DNA of 64,000 nt from contig NZ_PVTF01000001.1 in the NCBI RefSeq assembly GCF_003002815.1, positions 1,054,001-1,118,000 on the forward strand. The letters are read 5' to 3'. Origin of the DNA: Umezawaea tangerina. GTDB taxonomy: Bacteria; Actinomycetota; Actinomycetes; Mycobacteriales; Pseudonocardiaceae. Both the position numbers and the translations under genes were made by a program. Shown here piece after piece: positions 8,281 to 40,848 of this stretch. How positions within the stretch are numbered: position 1 is the first letter of the stretch; each line of letters starts with the position of its first letter. The notes beneath the pieces are model-generated. The model searched no databases. It had not been told where the DNA came from and saw only the letters and a list, made by a program, of their open reading frames with translations.

Positions 8281-8429
8281 AACCCGCTGGTACGCAAGGG
8301 AAGCACGCAAGCGTGGTCGATTTTACTTGGGGTTTTTGGGCCTACAATGAGTCGGCGGGCAGGCTCTACCACCTGCCCTTTTTCGCCCGACGAGGCCCAA
8401 AAAGAGGGGCCCCAAGTCAAATCGACCAC
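8281..8429 (-). repeat. Repeated nested-palindrome element, copy 1 (117-bp core 8313-8429 plus 32-bp tail)
   Basis: The core reads identically (117 of 117 bases) to the copy at 13298-13414 on the opposite strand. It has 20-bp terminal inverted repeats beginning GTGGTCGATTT with one mismatch, a second perfect 11-bp stem (TTTTTGGGCCT/AGGCCCAAAAA), a third imperfect stem, and an apical stem GGGCAGG/CCTGCCC with loop TGGTAGAG. A 32-bp tail ending in CAGCGGGTT is also conserved. On the minus strand it lies 53 bp downstream of glpX with its terminal repeat first and tail last. No transposase or obvious target duplication is seen. Confidence 0.9.
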
Positions 8430-8482
8430 ACCCCCACGGCACTCGACCCCGTCAGACCGCTGGAAAGCCCCGTAAAACGGCC

Positions 8483-9541
8483 CTACGGCAGCGGCGGGAT
8501 CAGTTGGGAGGCCTCGGACTCGGCCAGTCGGTCGAAGTCGACCGAGGAGTACTCGCGCAGCTTCGTCAGCCGGTGGAAGCCGTCGATCATGCGCACGGTC
8601 CCCGACTTGGACCGCATCACGATGGACTGCGTGGTGCACCCGCCGGTCCGGTAGTGCACTCCGCGCAGCAGGTCGCCGTCCGTCACGCCGGTGGCGCAGA
8701 AGAACACGTTGTCGCCGCGGACGAGCTCCCGCGTCGTCAGCACGCGGTCGAGGTCGTGGCCCGCGTCGATCGCCTTCTGCCGCTCCTCGTCGTCCTTCGG
8801 CCACAGCTTCGCCTGGATCTCGCCGCCGATGCACTTCAGCGCGGCTGCGGCGATGATGCCCTCGGGGGTGCCGCCGATGCCGACCAGCAGGTCCACGCCG
8901 GTGTCCGGGCGGGCGGCGGAGATGGCGCCCGCGACGTCGCCGTCGGAGATGAAGTGGATGCGGGCACCGGCCTGGCGGACCTCGTGCACCAGGTGCTCGT
9001 GGCGGGGGCGGTCCAGGATGCAGACGGTGACGTCGGAGACCTCGATGTGCTTGGCCTTCGCGACCCGGCGGATGTTCTCCGCGATGGGGGCGGTGATGTC
9101 GATGACGTCCGCGGCCTCCGGTCCGACCGCGAGCTTCTCCATGTAGAACACGGCCGACGGGTCGAACATGGCGCCGCGTTCGGCGACGGCGAGCACGGCG
9201 AGGGCGTTGGGCATGCCCTTGGCCATCAGGGTGGTGCCGTCGATCGGGTCCACGGCGACGTCGCAGTCGGGGCCGTTGCCGTCGCCGACCTCCTCGCCGT
9301 TGTAGAGCATGGGCGCCTCGTCCTTCTCGCCCTCGCCGATCACGACGACACCGCGCATGGACACGGTGTGGATGAGCTTGCGCATGGCGTCCACGGCCGC
9401 GCCGTCGCCGCCGTTCTTGTCACCCCGGCCGACCCATCTGCCGGCGGCCATGGCGGCGGCCTCGGTGACCCGGACCAATTCCAGCGCCAGGTTGCGGTCA
9501 GGTGCCTCTTGGCGGCGTTCGGAAGGGGTCGAGCTCACCAT
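8483..9541 (-). CDS. glpX: Class II fructose-1,6-bisphosphatase
   Basis: This 352-residue enzyme hydrolyses fructose 1,6-bisphosphate to fructose 6-phosphate, the committed gluconeogenic step. Hallmarks are [10 protein letters not shown] near residue 45, the metal-binding [11 protein letters not shown] and DPIDGTT near 100, and [15 protein letters not shown] near 220. Class I and III enzymes do not share these motifs. GGAGG lies six bases before the ATG. In M. tuberculosis glpX is the only FBPase and neighbours fum, as here (a recalled comparison). The gene is followed by repeated element copy 1, which may serve as its 3' processing or termination structure. Confidence 0.95.
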
Positions 9542-9613
9542 TGTGCGCCTCCTGGGATGATCGGCCGGTAGACCAATCCTCGCACGCGGGACCCCGTGAC
9601 CAGGGTCCCAATG

Positions 9614-9832
9614 TCAGCCCTCGACGTCCTCCTCGACCACGGCGAGCGCCGCGTCGATGCGTTCCTTGGCGCCGTCGAGGTGCCGTTCGCACGTCTTCGC
9701 GAGGGCCTCCCCGCGTTCCCACAGGGCGATCGAGTCCTCCAGGGACAGTCCGCCCGCCTCCAGCTTGCGGACCACCTCCACCAGCTCGTCGCGCGCCGCC
9801 TCGTACCCGAGCTCGGTCTCGGTAGGACTCAC
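9614..9832 (-). CDS. xseB: Exodeoxyribonuclease VII small subunit
   Basis: The 72-residue protein is of standard XseB length, with the conserved pattern [35 protein letters not shown] read in two stretches and a C-terminal acidic tail. Several XseB subunits bind one XseA to form ExoVII, which degrades single-stranded DNA. The GTG start overlaps the stop codon of the preceding small gene (GTGA). It ends the operon Rv1109c-like, xseA, hypothetical, xseB. Confidence 0.93.
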
Positions 9833-10263
9833 TGGGTCAAGCTCCCCATTCTGCTCTGGACGTGCACCACGACCGTGGCGACGGCCTGGTCGTACCCGAC
9901 GAACGCCTCCGCGAACTCGGCGCCGTCACCATCCCGCACGGCCTCGTCGATGCGGCCCTCGGCCTCCACGACGCGCCTGCGGTGCACCGAGCCGTGGCTG
10001 AGCCACCAGCGGGTGCCCGCGTACTGCGAGGTCGCCATCGACAGGTGGTGCAGCTCGTCGACCAGGGTCTGGCGGCCGGACGTGCAGCCCGCGACCAGCG
10101 CGGTCCAGCAGTCCGCGGCCGCGGAGTTGGCTGTCTCCGCCCGGTGCCGGACGGCCTGCGCGCTGTCGCGGGCGAGCGGATCGGCCGAGCCGTCCGCCGC
10201 CGACCCCGCGGCGGCCATCGTCAACGGGAGGAACGTCGGTTCACGCGCCGGCTTGGGCACCAC
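9829..10263 (-). CDS. Hypothetical protein between xseA and xseB
   Basis: The frame encodes 144 residues rich in Ala, with no domain I recognise. The middle is probably helical ([36 protein letters not shown]) and includes a [12 protein letters not shown] patch. There is no signal peptide and no membrane segment. It overlaps xseA by 23 bp and xseB by 4 bp, so it is translationally coupled in the ExoVII operon. In the mycobacterial arrangement I recall, xseA and xseB are adjacent, so this is a lineage insertion. An internal in-frame ATG at 10218 is an alternative start. Function unknown. Confidence 0.6.
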
Positions 10264-11500
10264 TGCCTCCGTCCTCGGTCACGACCGCGTGCACGGCCCC
10301 GTCGGCCACGCGCACGCGCAACCGCGTCCCGGCCGGGGCCTGTGTGGTCGACCTCAGCACGCCGTCGACACCCTCGGGTGTGACGCGTTGCACTACCGCG
10401 TATCCGCGGGCAAGCGTGGCCGCCGGTCCGAGGGTCGTCAAGCGCGCTTTCGTCGAGGCCAGGCCGCTCTGCTCGGCGGAGAGCCGGGCGAGCACCGCGC
10501 GGCGGGCGCGTTCCCGGAGCCGGTCGACCTCCTCGGCGCGCCGGTCCAGCGGGCCGTACGGGTCGGAAAGCGCAGGTCGGGTGCGCACCGAGTGCAGCAG
10601 CTTGCGCTCGCGGTCGACCCAGCCGTGCAGCGCCCGGCGGGCCCGGTCGCGCATTTGGAGTACCCGCTGTGCTTCTTCCGCCACATCCGGAACCACCCGT
10701 TTGCCCGCGTCGGTCGGCGTGGAGCAGCGGACGTCGGCGACGTAGTCGACCAGCGGGCTGTCCGGTTCGTGTCCGATCGCGGACATGACGGGCGTCCGGC
10801 ACGACGCCACCGCGCGGCACAGCGCCTCGTCGGAGAACGGCAGCAGGTCCTCGACGCTGCCGCCGCCGCGGGCCAGCACGATGACGTCCACCTCGACGTC
10901 GCGCTCCAAAGTGGACAGTGCGGTGAGGATCTGCGGCACCGCCGTCGGCCCCTGCACGGCGACGTTCACGACCCGGAAGCGGGCGCCCGGCCACCGGTTG
11001 CGCGCGTTCGTCAGCACGTCCCGCTCGGCCGCCGACGCCCGACCGGTGATCAGGCCGATCTTGTTGGGCAGGAACGGCGGCCTGCGCTTGCGGCGGGGGT
11101 CGAACAGGCCTTCCGCGCCGAGCAGCTTGCGCAGCCGCTCGATCCTGGCCAGCAGCTCGCCGATGCCGACCGCGCGGATCTCGTCCACCCGCAGGCTCAG
11201 CGTGCCGCGGCCGGCGAAGAACGTCGGCTTCCCGTGCACGACCACGCGGCTGCCGTCGGTCAGCGGCGGCTCCATGTTCCGGACCAGCGCGATCGGGCTG
11301 GTCAGCGACATCGACATGTCCACCGACGGGTCGCGCAGCGTCAGGAACGCCGTCGACGTCCCCGGTCGCGCGGAGACCTGGGTGACCTGGCCCTCGACCC
11401 ACACGGCGCCGAGCCGGTTGATCCACTCGGTGAGCTTGCGCGCCACCGTGCGGACCGGCCACGGCTGCTCGGCGGTCGACGGCGCGTCCGACGCGGTCAC
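10241..11500 (-). CDS. xseA: Exodeoxyribonuclease VII large subunit
   Basis: This 419-residue protein has an N-terminal OB-fold ([20 protein letters not shown]) followed by the XseA nuclease domain with [31 protein letters not shown] and [20 protein letters not shown] long coiled-coil region (about 270-350) binds XseB. The complex degrades single-stranded DNA to oligonucleotides and limits the accumulation of toxic intermediates in repair. The GTG at 11500 overlaps the stop of the upstream Rv1109c-like gene (GTGA), which decides this start over longer readings. Confidence 0.95.
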
Positions 11501-12039
11501 GTCTGCGCGCGAACGGTGGCGATGCGCCGGTTCAGCATCCCGGTGAACTGCGGCCGGTCGTCGTGGGCGCGCTCGTAGGCGAGCAGCTCCTCGAGGTCCT
11601 CGGCCGACAGCACGCGCAGCCGGGCGCGCAGCTGGGGCAGCGACAGCTCGTCGTAGGCGGGCAGCGCGGCCGGGGGCTCGGCGAGTATCGCCCGCTCCTC
11701 CTCGGTCCACGGGTCGTCGTCATCGTCGTCGGAGTCGGCGTCCGTCGGCGTTTCGTCCGGCGTTTCGCGCACCACGACGGGCGCCGCGGGGGCGCTGTCG
11801 TCCTCGTCGAAGGTCGCCCATTCGGGTTCTTCTTGCGGCGGTCGCATCCCGGCCAGGACGTCGTCGCCCTTGATGGCGAGCTCGGTCACCTGTTGCTGGA
11901 GGCGCATGGACAGCTGCAGGGCCTCGCTGACCACCGTCACGGGCAGGCCCGCGAGCTGCTGCGGGAGAAGGCGGGCCCGCTCCACGGCGGTGACCGCGAG
12001 GCCTGCCGCGATGCGGACCGGCAGCGGCAGTTGCTTCAT
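11497..12039 (-). CDS. Rv1109c-like lipid droplet-associated family protein
   Basis: The roughly 180-residue protein begins [20 protein letters not shown], an amphipathic/hydrophobic helical start, and continues with [20 protein letters not shown] long acidic stretch follows ([11 protein letters not shown]), then a short helical C-terminal domain ([26 protein letters not shown]). Position between xseA and ispH matches the mycobacterial Rv1109c locus; homologs are annotated as lipid droplet-associated, which I take from memory. The C-terminal segment resembles a peptidoglycan- or protein-binding helical hairpin, but function is not established. It is translationally coupled to xseA. Confidence 0.7.
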
Positions 12040-12137
12040 GGGTCCAGCCTGCCGCAAACCATCCCCCCGTGCCTACCTCCGCGACCGTGACGCTGCGCAT
12101 TTCGGCCTCTCAGCGGTACCCCCGTACCCTGGGAGGC

Positions 12138-13106
12138 ATGACCGCACAGACTGAGACCGCCGCCCCCAAGCGCGTGCTGCTGGCCAAGCCGCGCGGCTAC
12201 TGCGCGGGTGTCGACCGTGCGGTCGTCGCGGTGGAGAAGGCGCTCGAGAAGTACGGCGCCCCCGTGTACGTGCGCAAGGAGATCGTGCACAACAAGCACG
12301 TCGTCGAGACCCTGAGCGACCGCGGCGCGATCTTCGTCGACCAGACCGAGCAGGTCCCCGAGGGCGCGCTCGTCGTGTTCTCGGCCCACGGCGTCTCGCC
12401 CGCCGTGCACGAGGAGGCCGCCGCGCGGTCGCTGCGCACCATCGACGCCACGTGCCCGCTGGTCACGAAGGTGCACATGGAGGCGAAGCGCTTCGCCCGC
12501 GACGACTACGACATCCTCCTGATCGGCCACGAGGGCCACGAGGAGGTGGAGGGCACCGCGGGCGAGGCACCCGAGCACATCCAGCTCGTGGACACCGCCG
12601 AGGACGTCGACAAGGTCGTCGTCCGCGACCCCTCCAAGGTCATCTGGCTGTCCCAGACCACCCTGTCCGTGGACGAGACGATGGTCCGGGTCAACCAGCT
12701 CAAGGAGAAGTACCCCGACCTCCAGGACCCGCCCAGCGACGACATCTGCTACGCCACGTCCAACCGGCAGACCGCCGTGAAGACCATGGCCCCGTCCTGC
12801 GACCTCGTGCTGGTCGTCGGGTCGAAGAACTCCTCCAACTCGGTGCGGCTGGTGGAGGTGGCGCTGCAGGCCGGTGCCCGCGCCTCCTACCTGGTGGACT
12901 ACGCCAAGGAGGTGGACGAGGCCTGGCTTGAGGGGGTTACGACCGTCGGCGTGACCAGTGGGGCCTCGGTGCCGGACATCCTGGTGATGGAACTGCTGAA
13001 GTGGTTGGGGGAGCGGGGGTACGGGGACGTGGAGGAGATCACCACGGCGAACGAGACCATCGCTTTCGCGCTGCCGAAGGAAGTTCGGCAGAGCCGGGTG
13101 CGTTGA
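12138..13106 (+). CDS. ispH: 4-hydroxy-3-methylbut-2-enyl diphosphate reductase
   Basis: The 322-residue enzyme performs the last step of the MEP isoprenoid pathway, reducing HMBPP to IPP and DMAPP. The three iron-sulfur cluster cysteines are Cys22 (GYCAGV), Cys106 (ATCPLV) and Cys204 ([10 protein letters not shown]). The catalytic Glu is in the [10 protein letters not shown] region, and HGVSP is conserved. The ATG at 12138 follows GGGAGG and a candidate -10 TACCCT at 12125-12130, so the transcript may be leaderless or nearly so. The gene is divergent from the xse operon. Reducing power could come from ferredoxin and ferredoxin reductase, both encoded in this window. Confidence 0.96.
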
Positions 13107-13129
13107 GGGTCCCTGGGGCCGGGTTTGGT

Positions 13130-13258
13130 GCGTAGCGGGTTCGCTGTGTGATCGGTTTGGTGGCCTGGGGCTGCCAGGTGGTTCCGAGGCGTAGCGAGTG
13201 CGTTTGGTGTGTGGCTCGGTGGGGTTGTGCGTGGTTGTCGAGGCGTAGCGAGTTCGCT
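13130..13258 (+). repeat. Three degenerate 16-bp direct repeats
   Basis: GCGTAGCGGGTTCGCT (13130), GCGTAGCGAGTGCGTT (13189) and GCGTAGCGAGTTCGCT (13243) recur at 59- and 54-base spacing just downstream of ispH. Each is embedded in G/T-rich sequence. Their role is unknown. Confidence 0.55.
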
Positions 13259-13297
13259 GGGGTGCGTGGCTGGGTGGGGGTTACGACCCGCGGTGGT

Positions 13298-13446
13298 GTG
13301 GTCGATTTGACTTGGGGCCCCTCTTTTTGGGCCTCGTCGGGCGAAAAAGGGCAGGTGGTAGAGCCTGCCCGCCGACTCATTGTAGGCCCAAAAACCCCAA
13401 GTAAAATCGACCACGGTTGCGTGCTTCCCTTGCGTACCAGCGGGTT
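13298..13446 (+). repeat. Repeated nested-palindrome element, copy 2 (117-bp core 13298-13414 plus 32-bp tail)
   Basis: It is identical over the core to copy 1 and differs from copy 3 at one base. The four stacked stems are intact: terminal 20-bp repeats, the TTTTTGGGCCT stem, an inner GTCGG stem and the apical GGGCAGG stem. It lies 191 bp after ispH and 84 bp from the end of the convergent hydrolase. Relative to ispH it has the same orientation as copies 1 and 3 relative to glpX and typA. Confidence 0.9.
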
Positions 13447-13498
13447 TCGTTAGTCGTACGCTTGTGTGTTTCTTTTGCGTCTTTTCTTCGTCTTCCTG

Positions 13499-14383
13499 TC
13501 AGCAGTTCTTGAGCAGGTCGGCTAGTGCTGTGATGACGGCGTCTGGTTGTTCGATGGTCAGGTACTGGTGTGAGGCGTTGTCGACGGTTCGGTGTTGGCC
13601 TCTTGGTACTGAGCTCGCGATGGCCGCGTGCATGGCGTGGAGGCCGGTTTGGGCGGCTTGCACGAGGTGTTCGTCGGCGAACTGGGACCAGTAGGCGTTG
13701 CGGCCCGTGGCGGTGAGGACGGTCAGGGGGACGTCCGGGAGCGGGGTGCCGTGGCGGAGTTCGTCGTAGACGGTGGTGTCCATGTTGGCGGCTTCCGCCA
13801 GGCCGGTTCGCCAGGCCGTGAGGTGGTGTTCGACCAGGGGCGGTAGGACCTCCGCGGGCCAGGTCGCGTAGAGGGTCGTGAGGGCGGTGCGGGAGGCGGT
13901 CAGCTGGTCGTCGGTCAGGTCCGGCATGTCCTGTGCGGCCTGTTTCATGCGGTTGTTCAGCTCGGCGGCCTGCGGGGGCAGGTAGGTGAGCATGTCCTCG
14001 TGGCCGGGGTCCAGCAGGAGGAGACCCGCTACCTCGGTGGGGAACAGCTGGGCGTAGCGGCGGGCGTAGAAGGCGCCCAGGGAGTGGCCCACCAGGACGA
14101 ACGGGCCGGGGAGTGACGCGGTGTGCAGCAGCGCCCGGAGCTCGGTGGCGACCTCGGTGGCGGTGCGGGGCAGGTCGGCGGGGGTGCTCCAGCCGGTGCC
14201 CGCGCGGTCGTAGACGGCGCTGGTGGCGAGGTCGGCGGCCAGCTGCTGGACGTTGAGGAAGTCGAGGCCGACCAGGCCGGCGCCGGGCAGGAACACGACC
14301 GTGGGGCCGCCGGTGCCGGAGGTGTGCAGGAACAGGTGGTGGTCGGCGACGGGGACGAGGCGGCCGAGAGGGGGTTTGTGCAT
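13499..14383 (-). CDS. Alpha/beta-hydrolase fold enzyme
   Basis: This roughly 294-residue protein has the nucleophile elbow VGHSLGAFYA (Ser near 103), an oxyanion region VVFLPGAG near 30, a probable acid in the LTVLTATGRN region, and the C-terminal catalytic His in DNASHQYLTIEQP. The pattern fits non-heme haloperoxidase, esterase or epoxide hydrolase-like members. The ATG at 14383 is preferred to the in-frame GTG at 14389 because GGAGAG sits six bases upstream. It is divergent from an HTH regulator with an inverted repeat in the short gap, so it is probably under that regulator's control. Substrate unknown. Confidence 0.8.
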   Translation of the reverse strand: MHKPPLGRLVPVADHHLFLHTSGTGGPTVVFLPGAGLVGLDFLNVQQLAADLATSAVYDRAGTGWSTPADLPRTATEVATELRALLHTASLPGPFVLVGHSLGAFYARRYAQLFPTEVAGLLLLDPGHEDMLTYLPPQAAELNNRMKQAAQDMPDLTDDQLTASRTALTTLYATWPAEVLPPLVEHHLTAWRTGLAEAANMDTTVYDELRHGTPLPDVPLTVLTATGRNAYWSQFADEHLVQAAQTGLHAMHAAIASSVPRGQHRTVDNASHQYLTIEQPDAVITALADLLKNC

Positions 14384-14402
14384 TGGCACTCTCCATTCTT
14401 GA

Positions 14403-14422
14403 GTTTGAGAACGGTATCAAAC
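14403..14422. promoter_or_regulatory. Candidate operator between the alpha/beta hydrolase and its divergent HTH regulator
   Basis: GTTTGA and TCAAAC are perfect 6-bp arms separated by 8 bases in a 55-bp divergent gap. The site is more A/T-rich than its surroundings and covers the space where both promoters must lie. Binding by the ArsR-like protein encoded at 14439 is inferred. Confidence 0.5.
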
Positions 14423-14438
14423 GTGAGATCGTGCTGTC

Positions 14439-14975
14439 GTGGAAACCGTCGAACTGCTCCTGCACCCGGTGCGGCTGCGCATCGTGCACGCGATGGCCGG
14501 TGACCGGAGGCTGACGACGTCGCAGCTGTGCGCGCGGATGCCCGACGTGTCGAAGGCGACCGTGTACCGGCACGTGGGGCTGCTCACCGACGGCGGCGTG
14601 CTGGAGGTGGAGGGCGAGCAGCGGGTGCACGGGGCCGTGGAGCGGACCTACCGGCTGCGGCGGGAGCGGGCGGTGGTCGACGCGGAGACGGCGGCGTCGG
14701 CGACGGTGGAGGACCACCGGCGGGTGTTCGCGGTGGCGATGGCGACGCTGATCGCCGAGTTCAACGGCTACCTGGACCTGGACGGCGCCGACCCGGCGGC
14801 CGACGCGGTGGGGTACCGGCAGCACTCGGTGTGGCTGAGCCCGGAGGAGGTCGCCGAGCTGATCGCGGAGCTGCGGGCGGTGATCGTGCCGAGGATGCGC
14901 CACGAGCCCGCGCCGGGACGCAGGCGGCACCTGCTCAGCCCGATCCTGTTCCCCGTGGAGGAATCCCAGGCCTGA
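14439..14975 (+). CDS. ArsR-like winged-helix transcriptional regulator
   Basis: The 178-residue protein has an N-terminal winged helix (ELLLHPVRLRIVHAMAG, LTTSQLCARMPDVSKATVYRHVGLL), matching ArsR/YrhO-like regulators that act without an obvious metal-binding cysteine motif. The C-terminal domain (about 80-178, EFNGYLDLDGADPAADAVGY and SPEEVAELIAELRAV) is probably for dimerisation or ligand binding. The GTG start lacks a Shine-Dalgarno sequence, so the mRNA may be leaderless. The divergent hydrolase gene is the probable target. A strong hairpin follows. Confidence 0.75.
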   Translation: METVELLLHPVRLRIVHAMAGDRRLTTSQLCARMPDVSKATVYRHVGLLTDGGVLEVEGEQRVHGAVERTYRLRRERAVVDAETAASATVEDHRRVFAVAMATLIAEFNGYLDLDGADPAADAVGYRQHSVWLSPEEVAELIAELRAVIVPRMRHEPAPGRRRHLLSPILFPVEESQA

Positions 14976-14980
14976 ACGGA

Positions 14981-15008
14981 CGAAGGGCCCCCGGTCGGGG
15001 GCCCTTCG
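14981..15008. terminator. Strong bidirectional terminator between the HTH regulator and DUF6542 genes
   Basis: CGAAGGGCCCCC and GGGGGCCCTTCG form a perfect 12-bp stem with loop GGTC, six bases after one stop codon and nine before the other in a convergent gap. Confidence 0.85.
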
Positions 15009-15017
15009 TGGTGGGGC

Positions 15018-15842: not shown

Positions 15843-16089
15843 GCACACTCCTTGCTCGGCATCGTCACGGAAGGGGCACACGGTAGTCGGTGCGGTGTCA
15901 GCGCACGCTACGGCCGTGAAACGTCCCCAGCTTCCTCCACGCTCCGCGGGCCTCCAAGGATGCACCCGGACCGGTCCGATCTCCAGCCGGGTCGACGACC
16001 GGCGCGACCCGGCGGTGCAGCACCCGGTCGGGCGACACGCCGACCCGGTGGTGTTCGGGACTGTCGGTGCTTGGTCATAGCGTTGCCCC

Positions 16090-20099: not shown

Positions 20100-20110
20100 A
20101 CTCACCGCTC

Positions 20111-21190
<1,080 letters not shown>

Positions 21191-21260
21191 GGTTTCCGGT
21201 TTTCCTTTCGGTTTTCCGCGGTTCACTCGATCGAGCAGGTCGCGGTGGCTAACGATCGGT

Positions 21261-21289: not shown

Positions 21290-21304
21290 GAGGTCTGCCG
21301 AACA

Positions 21305-21886: not shown

Positions 21887-21911
21887 CCGTCCGCCGTGCA
21901 GGCCCCGAGCC

Positions 21912-30205: not shown

Positions 30206-30215
30206 CCGACCGGCC

Positions 30216-30384
30216 CTAGGGCGTGTGTCGGAGTCTCGTTCGATGGGAGTCGCGCCTGAGGTGGTTCCTGGCGGTGCGGCCGACTGGTCCGCATACCGCT
30301 GTTGTATGCGGGCCAGTCGGCCGTGCCCCCAGGGGCCGCGTCAGGCCCGGCTACCGCGAACACGGACTTCGACACACGCCCTAG
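30216..30384. mobile_element. 169-bp MITE-like palindromic element with CTAG ends
   Basis: The ends CTAGGGCGTGTGTCGGAGTC and its complement on the other side match at 19 of 20 positions. Inside, GCCTGA/TCAGGC and CCTGG/CCAGG pair, and a central near-perfect 20-bp stem (CGGCCGACTGG plus CCGCATAC) closes a 7-base loop. The element fills almost all of the gap between thiQ and the convergent permease. Its right-hand CTAG supplies the TAG stop codon of that permease. There is no coding capacity for a transposase, so it would be non-autonomous. A diverged copy of one end occurs at 57952. Confidence 0.75.
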
Positions 30385-33363: not shown

Positions 33364-33505
33364 GTCCCCTCCTCCACGTGCCGGTCGGCCTGGTGCCGTC
33401 CGACACCCCAGACACTGCCCGGATGGAACTGAGATGGTGCTGAGAGCCTGAGAGACCGCTGAGATCCCGCGCCGATTGTCCTCCTGAACCGGCATGCTGG
33501 GCCAC

Positions 33506-34234
33506 GTGAGACCACGGGTGCTGGTTGTCGACGACGAGATCGGTGTGCGCCGTGCCCTGGAGCGGGGCCTGTCGGCGGAGGGCATGGAGGTCGTCACGGC
33601 CGCCGACGGCCCGAACGCCCTGCGCGTGGCGCTGACCGGCGCGTTCGACGTCGTGCTGCTCGACATCATGCTGCCCGGCCTGTCCGGCTACCGCGTCCTG
33701 CAGCGGATGCGCGCCGAGGGCGTGCGCACCCCCGTGCTGATGGTGTCGGCCAAGGACGGCGAGGTCGACCAGGCCGACGGGCTCGACCTGGGCGCCGACG
33801 GGTACCTGGTCAAGCCGTTCTCGTTCGTGGTGCTGGTCGCGCAGGTCCGCGCGCTGCTGCGGCGCAACTCCGGCGGCAACTCCCGGCGCAGGCTCAAGCT
33901 GGGCGAGCTCGTCGTCGACCGGGGGCTGCGCGAGGTCACCTGGGCGGGCGCGCCGGTGTCGCTGAGCCCCCGCGAGTACGCGGTGCTCGACGTGCTGGCG
34001 GGCCGCGCGGGCTCGGTCGTGACCAAGGACGAGCTGCTGCGCACGGTGTGGGGCGACGAGCAGGCCGCGACCCGCAACGCCGTGGAGGTCTACGTCGGCT
34101 ACCTGCGGCGCAAGCTCGACGCGATGGGCGCCGGCGAGGTCGTCCGCACCGTCCGCGGGCACGGCTACCTCGCCTCCACCGCCGACCTCGACGCGGCGCT
34201 CGGCGCGACCGTGCAGCGGGCGGCCCGTAGGTGA
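33506..34234 (+). CDS. OmpR-family response regulator
   Basis: The roughly 242-residue regulator has a receiver domain with acidic pocket Asp9-Asp10, phospho-acceptor Asp53 (LLDIMLPG) and Lys in YLVKPFS. A winged-helix DNA-binding domain follows (SPREYAVLDVLAGRAGSVVTKDELLRTVWG, VGYLRRKL, VRTVRGHGYLA). I prefer GTG 33506 (MRPRVLVVDDE); ATG 33494 in frame is an alternative and neither has a clear ribosome binding site. It overlaps the histidine kinase gene by 4 bp. It is divergent from the LolA-ABC operon, its likely target. Confidence 0.92.
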   Translation: MRPRVLVVDDEIGVRRALERGLSAEGMEVVTAADGPNALRVALTGAFDVVLLDIMLPGLSGYRVLQRMRAEGVRTPVLMVSAKDGEVDQADGLDLGADGYLVKPFSFVVLVAQVRALLRRNSGGNSRRRLKLGELVVDRGLREVTWAGAPVSLSPREYAVLDVLAGRAGSVVTKDELLRTVWGDEQAATRNAVEVYVGYLRRKLDAMGAGEVVRTVRGHGYLASTADLDAALGATVQRAARR

Positions 34235-35517
34235 ACCCGCGTCGGTGGTGGTTCCGGCGCACGTTGCGGTTCCGGATCACCGTGGTGGCCACCGGCGTCG
34301 CGTGGCTGTGCCTGATGGCGTTGACCAGCCTGGCGCCGAGCCTCATCGCGCGCGTGCAGATCAGCGCCGTCGACTCGCAGCTGACCAGGGCGGTCGCGCT
34401 CGGCAGCGGCCCCGAGGTGCGGGTGCTGGACACCGCGGGGGCCCCGTTCGACGGGCTGCCCGCGCCCGACCTGACGCCCGCCGAGCTGCGCACCCTGAAG
34501 GCCGGGCAGCCGGTGCTGCGCGAGAACGGCGTGAGCGCCATGCGCTGGCTCGGCCGCGTCGAGACCACCGCCGACGGCACGCCCCGGCTCGTCGTCGCGG
34601 GCAACACCCTCATCGGCTACACCGGCGCGAACGAGCTCGGCACCCGCTGGCTCGCCGTGGCCACGGCGCTGGTCGCGCTGCTGGTCGGCATCGCGACCTG
34701 GCTGTCCGTCCGGTCCTCGCTGCGCCCGGTCGAGCGGATGCGCGTCGCCGCCGCCGAGCTGCCCCGCGGCGAACGGCTGCCGGTGCCCGAGTCGCGCGAC
34801 GAGCTGCAAGCGCTCGCGGAGGCGTTGAACGGCCTGCTCGCCCGGCGCGACGAGGCCACCGAGCGGCTGCGCCGGTTCACCGGCGACGCCGCCCACGAGC
34901 TGCGCTCGCCCGTCACGTCGGTGCGCGCCCAGGCCGAGGTCGCCGTCGCCCACCCGGACCCGGAGTTCTCGCTGGAGGTGCTGGAGTCCGTCGTCGAGGA
35001 GTCCGAACGCCTCTCCGCCCTGGTCGACGCCCTGCTCATCCTGGCCCGCGCCGACAGCGGCGAGCTGCCCCGCGCCGAGCCGGTGGACCTGGTGCTCCAG
35101 GTGCAGGCGATCGTCGACCGGATGCCGTCGACCGACCTGATCGTGCAGGTCGCGGCTCCGCTGAGCGCGTGCATGGTGTCCGCGACCCGCGCCGAGGTCG
35201 AGCTGGTCGTCGACAACCTCGTCCGCAACGCCGTCCGCTACGCCAACGGCCTGATCCGCATCTCGGTGCTGCCCGCCGCGCGGGAGATCCGGCTGATCGT
35301 GGACGACGACGGCCCCGGCATCCCGTCCGAGCACTGGTCGCGGATCTTCGACCGGTTCTACCGCGTCGAGGAGCACCGCGGCCGGGCCTCCGGCGGCTTC
35401 GGCCTCGGCCTCGCGCTGGTCGCCCACCTGGTCCGGCAGCGCAAGGGGACCGTCCGGGTCGCCGAGTCGCCGCAGCGCGGTGCCCGCCTCGAGGTCCGCT
35501 GGCCCGCTTACCGGTGA
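34231..35517 (+). CDS. Sensor histidine kinase
   Basis: The 428-residue kinase has two membrane helices (about 13-40 and 145-165) bracketing a roughly 100-residue extracellular sensor, a HAMP-like linker (SSLRPVERMRVAAAEL), the H-box TGDAAHELRSPVTSV with phospho-accepting His near 222, N-box VDNLVRNAVRYANG, and G-boxes DDDGPGIP and GGFGLGLALV. It phosphorylates the preceding response regulator. The GTG start overlaps the regulator stop. The small extracellular domain suggests sensing of an envelope signal. Confidence 0.92.
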   Translation: MNPRRWWFRRTLRFRITVVATGVAWLCLMALTSLAPSLIARVQISAVDSQLTRAVALGSGPEVRVLDTAGAPFDGLPAPDLTPAELRTLKAGQPVLRENGVSAMRWLGRVETTADGTPRLVVAGNTLIGYTGANELGTRWLAVATALVALLVGIATWLSVRSSLRPVERMRVAAAELPRGERLPVPESRDELQALAEALNGLLARRDEATERLRRFTGDAAHELRSPVTSVRAQAEVAVAHPDPEFSLEVLESVVEESERLSALVDALLILARADSGELPRAEPVDLVLQVQAIVDRMPSTDLIVQVAAPLSACMVSATRAEVELVVDNLVRNAVRYANGLIRISVLPAAREIRLIVDDDGPGIPSEHWSRIFDRFYRVEEHRGRASGGFGLGLALVAHLVRQRKGTVRVAESPQRGARLEVRWPAYR

Positions 35518-35545
35518 TCGCACAGGTGAATGGCAGTATGCGGCC

Positions 35546-36367
35546 GTGCCCGATCTCCGTGCGACCACGCTCGTAGCCGCGCCCGTCCGCACCGTCGCGG
35601 GCGCACTGCTCGACGCGCGTCTGCTCACCGCGTCCGTGCGCGGGCTGGGCGTGCGCATCTCCGGCGGCTCGGGCGTCCTGCACGTCGGCGCCGAGCTCCA
35701 GGGCTCCGTCGGCCCGGTCCGCGGCAGGCTCGTGGTCACCCGCGCGGACGTGACCGGTGTGTCCGCGTCCCTCGTCGACGGCCCGCTGCCCTCGTTCGAG
35801 CTGTCCACCGACCTCGTCGAGACCGGCGGGGGCACGCTGGTCGTCGACTGCGTCGAGTGGAACAGCCCCGGCGGCCCGTTCGGACGGCTGGCCGACGTGA
35901 TGGTCGGCCGCGGCCTCGCCCTCAAGATCCTCGAAGCCCGCGCGGGCGCCGTGTCCCGGCGGGCGTTGCAGCTGGTGGAGGCCGCCGTCGTGGTCGGCGC
36001 CGCCATCACCCGCGACGGGCTGCTCCTGGTCCAGCAGCGCTCCTTCCCCGCCGAGGCCGCGGGGAAGTGGGAGCTGCCCGGCGGCCGGGTCGACGCCGGG
36101 GAGACCGAGGCGGTGGCGCTGGCGCGGGAGTGCGTCGAGGAGCTGGGCGTGGAGATCGAGGTCGGCGACCAGGTCGGGCCCGACGTGCCGCTGACCGCCT
36201 CGCTCCTGCTCCGGGTGTTCTCGGCTGGTCTGGTGTCGGGCGAACCCGAGGCCCGTGAGCACCGGGCCGTGCGCTGGGTCCCGGTCTCGGCGCTGGAGGG
36301 CCTCGACTGGCTGCCCGCGGACCGCGTGCTGGTACCGGGGCTGCAGGGACTCTTGTCCTCTATTTAG
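35546..36367 (+). CDS. SRPBCC-like domain fused to a C-terminal Nudix hydrolase
   Basis: The 273-residue protein has an N-terminal domain of about 145 residues with the pattern of START/SRPBCC lipid-binding folds (RATTLVAAPVRTVAGALLDARLL, GTLVVDCVEWNSPGGPFGRLADVMV). A Nudix domain follows, with Nudix box GRVDAGETEAVALARECVEELGV (positions roughly 185-207, all invariant Gly, Glu and Arg residues kept). The Nudix half resembles MutT2-type pyrophosphatases that clear 8-oxo- or 5-methyl-dCTP. The locus order matches mycobacterial mutT2, which to my memory lacks the N-terminal domain. The GTG at 35546 is six bases after CAGTAT, a likely -10. Confidence 0.75.
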   Translation: MPDLRATTLVAAPVRTVAGALLDARLLTASVRGLGVRISGGSGVLHVGAELQGSVGPVRGRLVVTRADVTGVSASLVDGPLPSFELSTDLVETGGGTLVVDCVEWNSPGGPFGRLADVMVGRGLALKILEARAGAVSRRALQLVEAAVVVGAAITRDGLLLVQQRSFPAEAAGKWELPGGRVDAGETEAVALARECVEELGVEIEVGDQVGPDVPLTASLLLRVFSAGLVSGEPEAREHRAVRWVPVSALEGLDWLPADRVLVPGLQGLLSSI

Positions 36368-36388
36368 GGGCTAGGTAGAGTTCTGGGT

Positions 36389-36721
36389 ATGGCGGGACCC
36401 AGGATGACGTTGCCGACGCAGCTCGTGCTGCGCCAGTTGATGCAGGACCCGACCCGCGAGATGTACGGGCTGGAGATCTGCGCGGCGGCGGGCCTGCCCA
36501 GCGGCACGATCCACCCGATCCTCGCGCGACTGGAGAAGGTCGGCTGGCTGGAGAGCCGCTGGGAGGAGGTGGACCCGGCGGCGGAAGGACGGCCGAAGCG
36601 CCGGTACTACCGACTGCACCCGGACGGGATCGCGCAGGTCAAGGCCGCTCTGCACCGCGCGGAGGCCTCGGTGGCCGCACTGGGTCGCCTGCGGCCGGGG
36701 CTGGCCGGGGGTGCGGGGTGA
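36389..36721 (+). CDS. PadR-family transcriptional regulator
   Basis: The 110-residue protein is a compact PadR winged helix: LPTQLVLRQLMQDPTREMYGLEI, the recognition helix LPSGTIHPILARLEKVGWL, and the wing RPKRRYYRLHPDG. PadR repressors often pair with small membrane proteins or transporters; a small membrane-protein gene overlaps here by 4 bp (GTGA). A TAGAGT hexamer lies seven bases before the ATG, so the message is probably leaderless. Ligand unknown. Confidence 0.88.
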   Translation: MAGPRMTLPTQLVLRQLMQDPTREMYGLEICAAAGLPSGTIHPILARLEKVGWLESRWEEVDPAAEGRPKRRYYRLHPDGIAQVKAALHRAEASVAALGRLRPGLAGGAG

Positions 36722-36972
36722 GCGGCCGGCTCCTCGACCGGCCGGGCGCCGGGTGGGTGTTGCTGGGCGAGATCGTCCGCGACGACCGCCGCACCCGCAA
36801 CGCCGTGCGCCTGCTGCGCTGGGTCGTCCCGGCGTTCCTGCTGGTCGTGGGCCTGGTGGCCGCGGTCGCGGTGGTCTCGCCGGTCGGTGCCGGAGTGCTG
36901 GTGACCGCGCTCGGCGGCGGTGCGGTGGTGCGCAAGAAGGTGGGTGGGCGCGGGGGGTCCGCGCCCACCTGA
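36718..36972 (+). CDS. Small membrane protein coupled to PadR
   Basis: The 84-residue protein has an arginine-rich amphipathic start (EIVRDDRRTRNAVRLLRW), followed by one or two membrane helices (VVPAFLLVVGLVAAVAVV, VGAGVLVTALGGGAVV) and a basic, Gly-rich tail. Translation is coupled to the PadR gene by the GTGA overlap. It has no recognised family; a regulator-associated membrane partner is inferred from context only. Confidence 0.6.
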   Translation: MSGRLLDRPGAGWVLLGEIVRDDRRTRNAVRLLRWVVPAFLLVVGLVAAVAVVSPVGAGVLVTALGGGAVVRKKVGGRGGSAPT

Positions 36973-36975
36973 GCC

Positions 36976-37941
36976 TCACCCCAACCCGGCCATCCGCAGC
37001 GCCGCGTCCAGCCGGTGCTGGGCCCGGCCGCGGGCGCGTTCGGCGCCGGCCTGGCGGACCCGGTCCAGCTCGGCGGCGTCGTCGAGCAGGGCCAGGGTGC
37101 GCTCGCGCACACCCCGCAGCTCCTCCACGACCGCCTCGGCCGCCAGGTCCTTCAGCTCGGAGTAGCTCCCCAGCGACGCCGCGATCTCGTCCGGCGCCTT
37201 GGTCGTGCACGCGGAGATGATCTCCAGCAGGTTCGCGACGCCCGGCTGCTCCACCGGGGCGTAGCGGACCTCGTTGAGGTTGTCCGTGACGGCGCGCTTG
37301 ATCTTGCGCTGGATCAGGTCGGGCGGGTCGAGCACGAAGACGGTGCCCGCGGCGTCGGTGGCGGACTTGGCCATCTTCTTGGTCGGGTCGGCCAGGTCGC
37401 GGACGCGGGAGGCGGTGGGCGGGACGACGCCGCGGGGCATGGCGAAGACCTCGCCGTAGGTGCCGTTGAAGCGCTTGGCCAACGCCCTGGCGAGCTCGAC
37501 GTGCTGGGCCTGGTCGTCGCCGACGGGGACCTCGTGGGCGCCCTGGAGCAGGATGTCGGCGGCCATCAGCACCGGGTAGGTGAGCAGGCTCAGCCGCACC
37601 GAGTCGCGGCCCGCGGACTTCTCCTTGAACTGGATCATCCGCGCGGCCTCGCCGTAGGTGCAGGTGCACTCCAGGATCCAGGTGAGCGCGCCCAGCTCCC
37701 TGACCAGGTCGGACTGCACCGAGACGCTGTGCGGGTCGACCCCCGCCGCGATCAGCAGCGCGAGCTGCTCCCTGGTCAGGGACCTGAGTTTCGACGGGTT
37801 GTGGGAGGACGTCATCGCGTGCAGGTCGCTGATGAAGTAGACGTCCTGCTCGGTCCCCTCGGCGGCCCACCGGCGGATGGCGCCGAGGTAGTTGCCCAGC
37901 TGGACGTGACCGGACGGGGTGATGGCGGAGAGCCTGATCAT
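36976..37941 (-). CDS. trpS: Tryptophanyl-tRNA synthetase
   Basis: This 321-residue class I synthetase charges tRNA-Trp. The first signature is PSGHVQLGN (residues 9-17, the HIGH-type motif), and the second is KMAKS at 189-193 in place of the common KMSKS. GDDQAQHVELAR and CTYGEAARMIQFKEKS are also typical. KMAKS and the shortened N-terminus resemble the second, inducible TrpRS of Streptomyces, which resists indolmycin (recalled). The start follows AAGGGACCC. Upstream lies a leader peptide with two adjacent Trp codons and overlapping hairpins, so expression is predicted to rise when charged tRNA-Trp is scarce. The gene is convergent with the small membrane-protein gene. Confidence 0.94.
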   Translation of the reverse strand: MIRLSAITPSGHVQLGNYLGAIRRWAAEGTEQDVYFISDLHAMTSSHNPSKLRSLTREQLALLIAAGVDPHSVSVQSDLVRELGALTWILECTCTYGEAARMIQFKEKSAGRDSVRLSLLTYPVLMAADILLQGAHEVPVGDDQAQHVELARALAKRFNGTYGEVFAMPRGVVPPTASRVRDLADPTKKMAKSATDAAGTVFVLDPPDLIQRKIKRAVTDNLNEVRYAPVEQPGVANLLEIISACTTKAPDEIAASLGSYSELKDLAAEAVVEELRGVRERTLALLDDAAELDRVRQAGAERARGRAQHRLDAALRMAGLG

Positions 37942-37998
37942 GGTGGGTCCCTTCGACAGGTGTGCCACCCGTCGGCGCGGGACCCCGAACACAGCGAA

Positions 37999-38018
37999 GG
38001 CCGCCCGAGCGGGCGGCC
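37999..38018 (-). terminator. Attenuator terminator hairpin of the trpS leader (segments 3 and 4)
   Basis: GGCCGCCC and GGGCGGCC form a perfect 8-bp stem with a 4-base loop on the minus-strand transcript, between the leader peptide and trpS. The 5' arm of the hairpin can instead pair with the end of the preceding hairpin (GGCGGCC, complement of 38046-38052), which would give an antiterminator. The tract after the stem (TTCGCTGTGTT) is only moderately T-rich. Confidence 0.75.
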
Positions 38019-38041
38019 TGTGGTTCGTCTAGCGCACAGTT

Positions 38042-38089
38042 CTAGGGCCGCCGAGAGGCGGGCCACCAGGACGTGTGAAGACTGCGCAT
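38042..38089 (-). CDS. trpS leader peptide with tandem tryptophan codons
   Basis: The 15-codon frame from ATG 38089 to TAG 38042 reads MRSLHTSWWPASRRP. The adjacent Trp codons (complement of 38063-38068) overlap the first arm of a GGCCCGCC/GGCGGCC hairpin. Stalling there would free the second arm to form the antiterminator with the third segment. A TAGGAT hexamer ends seven bases upstream, so the leader itself is probably translated from a leaderless transcript. This design is the same logic as the trp operon attenuator and the Streptomyces trpS1 leader (known); its function here is inferred. Confidence 0.85.
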   Translation of the reverse strand: MRSLHTSWWPASRRP

Positions 38090-38096
38090 GGCCGCG

Positions 38097-38102
38097 ATCC
38101 TA
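38097..38102 (-). promoter_or_regulatory. -10 box of the trpS leader transcript
   Basis: TAGGAT on the minus strand matches the actinobacterial -10 consensus and ends seven bases before the leader-peptide ATG. No convincing -35 is visible, which is common for leaderless actinobacterial promoters. Confidence 0.6.
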
Positions 38103-38162
38103 TCGTGTCCGGGCGCTGTCTGGAGCGTCTACATTTGTTCTATGCGGCGGTACACCACCTGG

Positions 38163-38366
38163 TCAGGCCGCCGTCTTCGCGGACTTCCTCCCGGACTTCT
38201 TGTCCGCCTTCTTCCCGGCCTTCTTCCCTGCCTTCTTGCGCTCCTGCTTGGCGAGCTTCCTGAGCGCCTTCGCGCGGGCCTCGTCCCTGGCCTTGAGCAG
38301 GGCCACCACCGGGCACTTGCGGCACCGCGGTGTCGACCGGCAGCACTTCTTCTTCACCTTGCCCAC
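38163..38366 (-). CDS. Lys/Cys-rich 67-residue protein, possibly metal-binding
   Basis: The protein has four cysteines in a CC-x5-C-x2-C pattern (Cys8, Cys9, Cys15 and Cys18) within KVKKKCCRSTPRCRKCP, then a highly basic Lys/Ala tail of about 35 residues. Such clusters can bind a metal ion or iron-sulfur cluster, and the tail could bind nucleic acid. The GTG start has GGGAG about 12 bases upstream. Its promoter region overlaps a strong DtxR/IdeR-like box, suggesting control by iron. It is divergent from typA. The family occurs as small hypothetical proteins in actinobacteria, as far as I recall; function unknown. Confidence 0.65.
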   Translation of the reverse strand: MGKVKKKCCRSTPRCRKCPVVALLKARDEARAKALRKLAKQERKKAGKKAGKKADKKSGRKSAKTAA

Positions 38367-38401
38367 GCTCAGTACACTCCCTGGTAGAGGTGCTTCCCAG
38401 A

Positions 38402-38420
38402 CTAGGTGAGGCTGACCTCA
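38402..38420. promoter_or_regulatory. Candidate DtxR/IdeR iron box
   Basis: The 19-base site CTAGGTGAGGCTGACCTCA matches the consensus TTAGGTTAGSCTAACCTAA at 15 positions and is part of a perfect inverted repeat (GGTGAGG-N4-CCTCACC). It overlaps TAGTCT (complement of 38399-38404), the apparent -10 of the Lys/Cys-rich gene, so iron-loaded repressor would block it. A role for typA, 113 bases away, is less likely. Confidence 0.6.
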
Positions 38421-38532
38421 CCCCCGACGATGTGTGGTATTGGCGACGGAGCCGGTACTCTTGTGAAGGCTGTGCGCGATCTCCGTCCCGGCGCTGGCCC
38501 CCTTCCTCGACTTCCAGCTCTAGGAGTTCCGC

Positions 38533-40440
38533 GTGCCCACGGCCACCGCGTCGATCAACGATTCGCCCGCTCAGGTGCGTGCTGACCTGCGCAACGTCGC
38601 GATCGTCGCGCACGTTGACCACGGCAAGACCACCCTCGTCGACGCCATGCTCCGGCAGTCCGGAGCGTTCTCGGCCCGCGCCGAGCTCGTCGACCGAGTC
38701 ATGGACTCCGGTGACCTCGAGCGCGAGAAGGGCATCACCATCCTCGCGAAGAACACCGCGGTCCGCAGGGAGACCCCCGATGGCCCGGTGACGATCAACG
38801 TCGTCGACACCCCCGGCCACGCCGACTTCGGCGGCGAGGTCGAACGCGGCCTCTCCATGGTCGACGGCGTCGTCCTGCTCATCGACGCCAGCGAGGGCCC
38901 GCTCCCGCAGACCCGCTTCGTGCTGCGCAAGACCCTGGCCGCGGGCCTGCCCGTGATCCTGGTCGTCAACAAGGTCGACCGCCCCGACGCCCGCATCAGC
39001 GAGGTCGTCGAAGAGGCCCACGACCTGCTGCTCGAACTGGCCGCCGAGGTCGGCGCCGACGACTCCGTGCTCGACCTCCCGGTCGTGTACGCGTCGGCCC
39101 GCGCCGGTCGCGCCAGCATGATCCAGCCCGCCGACGGCGGCCTCCCGGACGAGGAGAACCTCGACACCCTGTTCGAGGTGCTGCTCAACCACATCCCCGC
39201 CCCGCGCGGCGACGTGAACGCGCCCCTCCAGGCGCTGGTCACGAACCTCGACGCGTCGTCGTTCCTCGGCCGCATCGCGCTGTGCCGCATCCACTCGGGC
39301 CACATGCGCAAGGGCGACTACGTGGCCTGGTGCCGCGAGGACGGCACGACCCAGCGCGTCCGCATCACCGAGCTGCTGATCACCGAGGCGCTCGACCGCG
39401 TCCCCACCGAGGAGGCGCACGCGGGCGACCTGGTCGCCATCGCGGGCATCCCGGACATCACGATCGGCGACACGCTCGCCGACGCCGACAACCCGGTGCC
39501 GCTCGAGCGCATCACCGTCGACCTGCCCGCCATCTCGATGACCATCGGCGTGAACACCTCGCCGCTGGCCGGTCGCGGCGGCGGCACCAAGCTGACGGCC
39601 CGCGTCCTCAAGGCCCGCCTCGACTCGGAGCTGGTCGGCAACGTGTCGATCCGCGTGCTCCCGACCGAGCGCCCCGACACCTGGGAGGTGCAGGGCCGCG
39701 GCGAGCTGGCCCTCGCCATCCTGGTCGAGCAGATCCGCCGCGAGGGCTTCGAGCTCACCGTCGGCAAGCCGCAGGTGGTCACCCGCACCGTCGACGGCAA
39801 GCTCCACGAGCCCTTCGAGCGCGTCACCATCGACGCCCCCGAGGAGCACCTGGGCGCCGTGACGCAGCTCCTGGCGAACCGCAAGGGCCGCATGGAGAAC
39901 ATGTCCGGCCACGGCACGGGCCGCGTCAAGCTCGACTACGTCATCCCGTCGCGCGGCCTCATCGGCTTCCGCACGGAGTTCCTGACCGAGACCCGCGGCA
40001 CCGGCATCGCCAACGCCGTCTCCGAGGGCTACGGCCCGTGGGCGGGCGAGATCCGCACCCGCCACAACGGCTCCCTGGTCGCCGACCGCTCCGGCATGAT
40101 CACCGCCTACGCCATGATCCAGCTGGCCGACCGCGGCACGTTCTTCGTCGAGCCCGGCGCGGACGCCTACGAGGGCATGGTCGTCGGCGAGAACCCGCGC
40201 GCCGAGGACCTCGACATCAACGTGTGCCGTGAGAAGAAGCTCACGAACATGCGCCAGTCCTCCGCCGACGTCATGGAGACCCTGGCCCGCCCCCGCAAGC
40301 TCTCGCTCGAAGAGGCCCTCGAGTTCTGCGCCTCCGACGAGTGCGTCGAGGTCGCGCCCAACGTCATCCGCGTGCGCAAGCTCATCCTGGACGCGAACCT
40401 CCGCGGCCGCGAGCGCTCGCGCAACAAGCTCCGCGGCTAG
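38533..40440 (+). CDS. typA: Translational GTPase TypA/BipA
   Basis: The 635-residue EF-G-like GTPase has G1 AHVDHGKTTL, G2 RGITI-like EKGITILAKNT, G3 DTPGHADFGGEVER and G4 NKVDRPDA, followed by beta-barrel, EF-G III/V-like domains and the C-terminal BipA domain (VIPSRGLIGFRTEFLTETRG). It binds 50S subunits and assists ribosome assembly under stress or low temperature. The GTG follows AGGAG by seven bases. Repeated palindrome copy 3 follows the gene. In mycobacteria typA is followed by lpqW, as here (recalled). Confidence 0.96.
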   Translation: MPTATASINDSPAQVRADLRNVAIVAHVDHGKTTLVDAMLRQSGAFSARAELVDRVMDSGDLEREKGITILAKNTAVRRETPDGPVTINVVDTPGHADFGGEVERGLSMVDGVVLLIDASEGPLPQTRFVLRKTLAAGLPVILVVNKVDRPDARISEVVEEAHDLLLELAAEVGADDSVLDLPVVYASARAGRASMIQPADGGLPDEENLDTLFEVLLNHIPAPRGDVNAPLQALVTNLDASSFLGRIALCRIHSGHMRKGDYVAWCREDGTTQRVRITELLITEALDRVPTEEAHAGDLVAIAGIPDITIGDTLADADNPVPLERITVDLPAISMTIGVNTSPLAGRGGGTKLTARVLKARLDSELVGNVSIRVLPTERPDTWEVQGRGELALAILVEQIRREGFELTVGKPQVVTRTVDGKLHEPFERVTIDAPEEHLGAVTQLLANRKGRMENMSGHGTGRVKLDYVIPSRGLIGFRTEFLTETRGTGIANAVSEGYGPWAGEIRTRHNGSLVADRSGMITAYAMIQLADRGTFFVEPGADAYEGMVVGENPRAEDLDINVCREKKLTNMRQSSADVMETLARPRKLSLEEALEFCASDECVEVAPNVIRVRKLILDANLRGRERSRNKLRG

Positions 40441-40848
40441 GAGCACCAGCACGACGGCAGGGCCACTTCCGGTGTCGGGGGTGGCCCTGCTTGCTGTGCT
40501 CGATTGGGGGTGCTGCTCGGTTGCGTGGGTGGTGCGGGTGGTTGCGTGGGTGGGTGTGGTCGATTTGACTTGGGGCCCCTCTTTTTGGGCCTCGTCGGGC
40601 GAAAAAGGGCAGGTGGTAGAGCCTGCCCGCCGACTAATTGTAGGCCCAAAAACCCCAAGTAAAATCGACCACGCTTGCGTGCTTCCCTTGCCTACCAGCG
40701 GGTTCGGGTGCTTCGGGGTGCTTGAGGTGCGGGTTCGGCCTCTCGCATCCGGTGCCGGTTGGAACCCCACCACCGCCTCGGGCGTCCTCAGAACATGAAC
40801 TCCAGGCCTCTCGGGCAACTGTCAACGCGCTCTGGCAGGCTGCGGGGC
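40441..40848. other. 408-bp intergenic region with G/T-rich direct repeats, palindromic element copy 3 and the lpqW control region
   Basis: It starts with a G/T-rich stretch containing two copies of GGTTGCGTGGGTGG (40519 and 40540), continues with the repeated nested palindrome and its tail, and ends with about 140 bases that must hold the promoter of the lipoprotein gene. No coding frame is supported. Confidence 0.6.
40556..40704 (+). repeat. Repeated nested-palindrome element, copy 3 (117-bp core 40556-40672 plus 32-bp tail)
   Basis: The core differs from copies 1 and 2 at one base (CTAAT for CTCAT in an unpaired bulge). All paired positions of the four stems are kept. The tail ends in CAGCGGGTT like the others, with one change. 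It starts 116 bp after typA, in the same orientation relative to the upstream gene as the other two copies. Confidence 0.9.

Follow-up and report, generated by a model that had tools for sequence, protein, structure and literature searches.

What kind of element is the hairpin that stands in three near-identical copies, behind three different genes, in a 64,000-nucleotide stretch (the window) of the 10.7-Mb genome of Umezawaea tangerina, and how do its copies stay so alike? A preliminary description of the window placed the copies downstream of glpX, ispH, and typA, and both the copies and their places are confirmed: the hairpins lie 51, 189, and 113 bp from the respective stop codons (we take glpX and ispH to be such from their translations), copies 1 and 2 are identical across 119 bp, and copy 3 differs by one base in an unpaired bulge (Table 1). 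Together with a tail of about 32 bp, the repeat spans 152 bp, with 98-99% identity among the window copies. The reading that we favour, to which we would give an even chance, is that of a DNA palindrome resembling the enterobacterial repetitive intergenic consensus (ERIC) and the bacterial interspersed mosaic element (BIME), fixed in place in the genome and repeatedly replaced by other versions from the same genome.

Table 1. The three hairpin copies of the window, their parts, and the genes upstream of them.
Feature	Position in window	Strand	Remark
3' tail of copy 1	8281..8312	-	common to copies 2 and 3
Hairpin copy 1, type A	8313..8431	-	downstream of glpX; site without copy in both congeners
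Upstream flank of copy 1, G+T-rich	8432..8482	-	0.69 on element plus strand
glpX, upstream of copy 1	8483..9541	-	predicted gene; name from preliminary description
ispH, upstream of copy 2	12138..13106	+	predicted gene; name from preliminary description
Upstream flank of copy 2, G+T-rich	13107..13295	+	0.76; direct repeats
Hairpin copy 2, type A	13296..13414	+	both congeners: copy at same site, same orientation
CCCCT asymmetric bulge adjoining stem GGGG	13318..13322	+	present in most cross-genus rows
A-run bulge	13344..13348	+	minus strand: T-run after 7-bp GC-rich hairpin, terminator-like
3' tail of copy 2	13415..13446	+	
typA, upstream of copy 3	38533..40440	+	predicted gene; name from preliminary description
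Upstream flank of copy 3, G+T-rich	40441..40553	+	0.70
Hairpin copy 3, type A	40554..40672	+	both congeners: same site, opposite orientation
3' tail of copy 3	40673..40704	+	

The family was collected with BLAST and with a covariance model made from 50 copies. Among 150 scored candidates in U. tangerina, those scoring 62.4 bits or less, 36 in all, are the palindromes read in reverse and were excluded, which leaves at least 114 copies as a lower bound. These comprise 30 copies of type A (GTGTGG-like) and 84 of type B (GTGCGG-like), with 57 distinct sequences, one of which occurs in exactly the same form at 14 sites. Two Umezawaea congeners, G001 and G002, have the hairpin in at least 69 and at least 81 distinct places, counted by hand among the matches listed; their match totals (144 and 141), like those of other genomes (e.g., 70 in G224), may include reverse readings. 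Larger samples were searched with stricter filters. Among 297 genomes of Pseudonocardiaceae, matches were found in 29, representing 9 of the 46 genera sampled, and the family is carried, e.g., by Lentzea sp. NBRC 105346. The samples of the order (298 genomes) and of the class (296) gave no match outside Pseudonocardiaceae, the matching genomes (4 and 1) being members of the family. The hairpin is thus an intergenic palindrome, dispersed through the genome and so far known only from this family; the preliminary description had counted poor conservation in relatives as a sign against it, and several genera turn out to hold it. No Rfam family scored above its gathering threshold on the element when seven loci were compared with 4227 families (rRNA was matched in these loci, and all other matches fell below the gathering scores), and a literature search, in which subscription papers were mostly beyond reach, returned no published description of this hairpin family.

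The element is a polar, imperfect palindrome of about 118 bp that forms a nested hairpin, in the order outer stem, CCCCT bulge, inner stem, A-rich bulge, and tip stem, with ends that are mostly GTGTGG or GTGCGG on one side and CCAC or CCGC on the other. Its pairing is maintained by compensatory changes. Within the genus, 12 of 41 pairs are compensated; across genera, both sides have changed at 34 of the 41, and 1160 of 1236 cells are paired in an alignment of 31 rows from 16 genomes and 8 genera (25 of the 56 rows first aligned were reverse readings and were dropped). Most of these 31 rows keep the core TTGAYTTGGGG-CCCCT..CCCCAARTMAA and the asymmetric bulge. The persistence of asymmetric bulges counts against the arms simply copying each other. 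Is the selected form RNA or DNA? The plus-strand RNA of copy 2 with its tail folds at -75.7 kcal/mol (z -5.95), a value equalled by none of 200 shuffles. Selection on RNA alone is expected to leave an excess of G-U pairs. Among the outer 15 pairs of 137 distinct Umezawaea sequences, each counted once, 2017 pairs are Watson-Crick, 16 are G-T, 10 are A-C, and 12 are of other kinds. There is no clear G-U excess, which counts for DNA rather than RNA as the selected form.

The copies occupy a narrow range of genomic positions. Genes were called with our own codon-score predictor, an overlap being counted above 20 bp, and none of the 114 copies overlaps a predicted gene, so that copies in coding regions, which the preliminary description had named as evidence against its proposal, were not found. 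With genes oriented relative to the element, 55 copies lie between convergent genes, 38 in tandem pairs on the opposite strand, 16 in tandem pairs on the same strand, and 5 between divergent genes. In the sampled loci, convergent gaps make up 8.7% of the element-free intergenic length, tandem gaps 52.8%, and divergent gaps 38.6%, and therefore promoters are avoided and 3' ends favoured. Orientation relative to the gene is not fixed. The common orientation reported for the window holds for its three copies and fails genome-wide, where the excess in tandem pairs (p 0.004) is opposite to the proposed rule; a constant orientation to the upstream gene is rejected, and the lack of fixed orientation, which had likewise been named as contrary evidence, is largely what the genome displays. 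Replication polarity is rejected too: strands are mixed, by eye, among the 81 listed copies of G002, and the 15-mers of the arm in U. tangerina are 56 forward and 56 reverse. So is the idea of special neighbour genes, as the flanking proteins belong to ordinary families in a Pfam scan whose result covers 112 of the 225.

A second polar feature surrounds the hairpin. In flanks of about 200 bp on each side in U. tangerina, the G+T content of the hairpin plus strand averages 0.69 on the left and 0.67 on the right. Values above 0.5 occur in 111 of 113 flanks on the left and in 109 of 114 on the right, whichever class of gene orientation is considered, and control gaps free of the element are unbiased (means 0.47-0.50). 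The preliminary description was right to report G/T-rich sequence before each copy, and understated it, since both sides of nearly every copy are affected. The skew recurs in G002 (36/36 left, 35/36 right), in G001 (40/43 left, weaker at 32/45 on the right, some rows duplicating one site), in Lentzea (15/15 and 12/14), and in other genera (14/15 and 13/17). G makes up 38-46% of the plus strand of the U. tangerina flanks and C 22-26%, the minus strand hence being C-rich and G-poor. A strongly skewed 120-bp stretch is present in 110 of 113 element-bearing gaps vs 15 of 132 element-free ones, of which 4 hold a different hairpin family. The flanks are also full of repeats: direct 9-mer repeats within 80 bp cover 27% of them, compared with 2.7% for control gaps and 2.4% once the flanks are shuffled. 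The skew along the hairpin plus strand, whatever the direction of the genes, and the density of repeats are new here.

The history of single sites can be followed among the three Umezawaea species. Under a strict two-sided rule, 18 of 50 G002 copies share their gap with a U. tangerina copy, 14 in the same orientation and 4 flipped (one of the latter is the second copy of a doublet), and one faces an empty site. The comparison with G001 used 46 rows from 40 loci, some overlapping, so that its flank and site sets contain duplicates; its 12 same-gap rows amount to 8 distinct copies, 4 in the same orientation and 4 flipped, of which two come from doublets and one was compared with a doublet. The ispH site is occupied in all three species in one orientation. 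At the typA site (L045/L004) the hairpin is flipped in both congeners relative to U. tangerina, and in G002 the polarity of the flanks, judged by eye, has turned with it; this site, L035/L023, and L238/L022 are flips of one single copy for another. Neither congener has a copy within 1.5 kb past glpX, where local gene order differs too; G002 (L243) has other short tandem repeats (CGAACGTTCGACTCGGGGTGTC) there, without a hairpin. L214 and L167 are reciprocal empty sites, with lengths of 441 vs 56 bp and 510 vs 32 bp, and therefore it is the entire cassette that is either there or missing. At the few empty sites looked at, no target duplication was seen, the flanks there being too diverged. Inverted doublets occur in U. 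tangerina (L027), G002 (L033/L039), and G001 (L046, L048), and at L007, L024, L160, and L027 a single copy in one species corresponds to a doublet in another. Such doublets opposite a single copy suggest a route of replacement, in which a new inverse copy arrives beside the old one and one of the two is lost.

Sequences at shared sites do not follow the sites. We compared orthologs with paralogs for 26 pairs, picked by reading the locus comparison, and with 50 of the at least 81 G002 copies. Orthologs are on average 84% identical, vs 98% for the ten nearest paralogs in U. tangerina and 90% for those in G002. All 26 orthologs fall below both the ten nearest U. tangerina paralogs and the mean of all of them, and in only 2 of the 26 pairs does the best match in the other genome turn out to be the ortholog, so that site and sequence are almost uncoupled. 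One doublet is informative: at L027, identity to the G002 copy of that gap (L229) is 97.5% for copy C1:1140366 and 84.4% for the other copy, which is the first of the doublet and the one used to score this pair. The former value implies that ordinary divergence is small and that the other copies have been replaced. Homogenisation is thus strong in U. tangerina and weaker in G002.

These observations could be accounted for as follows. The cassette would be tolerated almost only where genes and promoters stay unbroken, hence at 3' ends and in convergent gaps. Many sites outlast speciation, and the sequence at each would be swapped for a different version drawn from within the genome. This could come about through gene conversion among the copies, or else a copy could arrive beside the old one as an inverted doublet, with one of the two then lost. 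Such replacement at inherited sites would give rise to concerted evolution, doublets, and flips. The active form may be hairpin DNA, extruded or single-stranded, that stalls replication or is cut, and this stalling or cutting might drive both replacement and the formation of local repeats. As a by-product, the palindrome may plausibly act on the 3' ends of transcripts. The surprising traits are how strictly polar the G+T-rich repeat island is, and that copies are replaced at sites which were inherited. Both could be joined in a bolder proposal, which we regard as doubtful: the polar hairpin, with its CCCCT and A bulges, would be recognised and one strand opened or nicked, which would often expose the flanking plus strand as single-stranded DNA, and plus-strand deamination (C to T, A to G), slippage, and recombinational copying would then produce the G+T island and the likeness of copies, making the element a self-homogenising hot spot with its own mutational signature.

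A number of points weigh against replacement in place. First, a two-sided match among the fetched U. tangerina loci is missing for 31 of 50 G002 and 33 of 46 G001 rows. Second, the ortholog is less alike than the ten closest G002 paralogs in 22 of the 26 pairs, yet less alike than the G002 paralogs averaged as a whole in only 8, and the mean identity within G002 (82.5%) is barely above the cross-genome mean (81.8%), since several subfamilies coexist in G002. Third, three genomes cannot separate gene conversion from nested insertion with loss. Fourth, the cross-genus alignment was fitted to the structure of the model and is thus biased toward it, and 16 G-T against 10 A-C pairs are few events. 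Fifth, the flank skew tracks the polarity of the hairpin and no replication polarity is seen, so that plain fork stalling leaves the skew unexplained. Finally, no nuclease, recombinase, or transposase has been tied to the element.

The alternative that survives best, although well short of an even chance, is that of a host RNA element, either a transcription terminator, possibly bidirectional, or a stabiliser of 3' ends. A minus-strand transcript would meet in succession a C-rich, G-poor stretch, the sequence GGGCAGG..CCTGCCC-TTTTT, and the big hairpin, and a C-rich, G-poor stretch resembles a Rho site. The composition of the flanks in U. tangerina fits this order, 109 of 114 copies follow at least one predicted gene, 55 of the copies lie between convergent genes, and the tandem copies favour the minus strand. 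A terminator-like match occurs on the element minus strand in both of the window copies scanned (of three), in a scan that expects 0.5-1.2 such sites by chance in the stretches covered. In another genome (G080, L113, 1530-1649), a copy lies about 130 bp past the 5S gene of an rRNA operon, on the same strand. Against this, 16 copies stand behind a plus-strand gene alone and 5 behind no gene; for a general terminator in a genome of this size, at least 114 sites are few; by eye, some other genera have a shorter T-run or none; and G-U pairs are not clearly enriched. The 3' processing or termination element of the preliminary description agrees with the location of the copies and fails on its orientation rule.

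A non-autonomous transposon of the miniature inverted-repeat transposable element type, now spreading through an unrecognised transposase, appears improbable to us. In its favour, the lack of a copy past glpX in both congeners and the reciprocal empty sites point to gain or loss of copies, and one exact sequence is common to 14 sites. No partner with the same arms was found in U. tangerina: the genome contains 112 exact matches to the 15-mer of the arm, and as many of the 114 copies (112) include one, which accounts for all of them and leaves no orphan arm (diverged arms are possible), so that an autonomous element with a split hairpin is rejected. Y1_Tnp (PF01797) has 0 matches in U. tangerina, the congeners not having been searched, and mobilisation by Y1 transposases of the REP-associated type (RAYT; REP, repetitive extragenic palindrome) is rejected for that genome. 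No transposase or mobile-gene family stands among the 25 commonest of the 188 Pfam families in the 112 scanned proteins (of 225). Many sites are older than the species, and no clean target duplication was seen where one was looked for. The transposon first proposed is thus supported as regards gain or loss, with neither a same-arm partner nor a clean target duplication found.

Mobilisation by DUF222 (13E12-type) proteins, as a homing-like or composite element, is highly improbable: four inverted, tail-in hairpin pairs in G170 each flank DUF222 sequence, and G001, G224, and U. tangerina, all rich in hairpin matches, have no match for DUF222, so that U. tangerina would need a relative too remote for the Pfam model, and DUF222 mobilisation is rejected. 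DUF222 has 7 matches in G002 and 11 in G170. The four pairs of G170 (L099-L102) are 1-2 kb apart; the DUF222 frame is split at L099, and the genes presumably include an HNH part, judging by their translations. By their arrangement they look as if they formed a composite unit, from which it follows that hairpins can be carried by other units.

Two further features of the window deserve mention. A second hairpin (50438-50492) lies in a convergent gap (50366-50690) and belongs to another family, with the core TTGTCAAGAC-N9-GTCTTGACAA and outer arms that vary among copies yet remain perfectly complementary. By pattern it has 173 palindromic sites in U. tangerina (reversed-pattern control, 0); among 21 copies examined, 19 have 14-18 further pairs and 15 lie between convergent genes. 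At 5380-7084 there are diverged tandem copies of one gene (D1-D3, D8), with repeats 69-78% alike, which we take to be L,D-transpeptidase-like from the translation.

How does replacement in place of an ERIC/BIME-like palindrome compare with known systems? ERIC, or intergenic repeat units (IRU), of enterobacteria are 127-bp intergenic repeats in many copies, whose transcript folds as a long stem-loop, and are tabulated as ending in TA and having a 7-bp terminal inverted repeat as well as target duplications (PMC2229807). The Umezawaea hairpin is likewise a large, imperfect, intergenic palindrome in many copies, so that the ERIC-like unit of the preliminary description is supported as a likeness, extended by non-coding location, 3' ends, and several genera; unlike ERIC, it is GC-rich, lacks TA ends, has a much longer stem and polar, G+T-rich, repeat-laden flanks, and belongs to another phylum. 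YPAL/RU-2 of Yersinia (about 168 bp) is intergenic, with internal inverted repeats, no TA ends, no A+T richness, and target duplications of 3-26 bp (PMC2229807); compared by description rather than sequence, our hairpin shares the location, the inverted repeats, and the absence of TA ends and of A+T richness, and differs, as far as the diverged flanks show, in that no target duplications were seen. The intrastrand-triplex repeats TMECO/PIT are intergenic and near-identical, with raised variability of the surrounding sequence (PMC4666352), as here, and differ in being built on a 37-nt triplex motif, present in 23 copies in E. coli MG1655. REP/BIME elements are extragenic, with more than 100 copies per genome, inverted doublets, and complementary stem changes, the REPs being short palindromes with a GT(A/G)G head linked to Y1 transposase (PMC2817692), of 20-40 bp (PMC3733652). 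Our hairpin shares the first four traits, and is unlike REP/BIME-RAYT in its nested structure of about 118 bp, without a head of that type, and in having no Y1_Tnp match in U. tangerina. It thus behaves like an ERIC/BIME repeat, yet lacks what was tested as characteristic of ERIC (TA ends) and of REP-RAYT (the Y1 enzyme and a short GTAG-type palindrome). The best-understood parallel, REP, needs a Y1 transposase, for which this genome gave no match. Replacement in place, flips, and a strand-polar island make the persistence of bacterial palindromic repeats directly testable, and in the three Umezawaea genomes single sites can already be seen shared, empty, doubled, or flipped.

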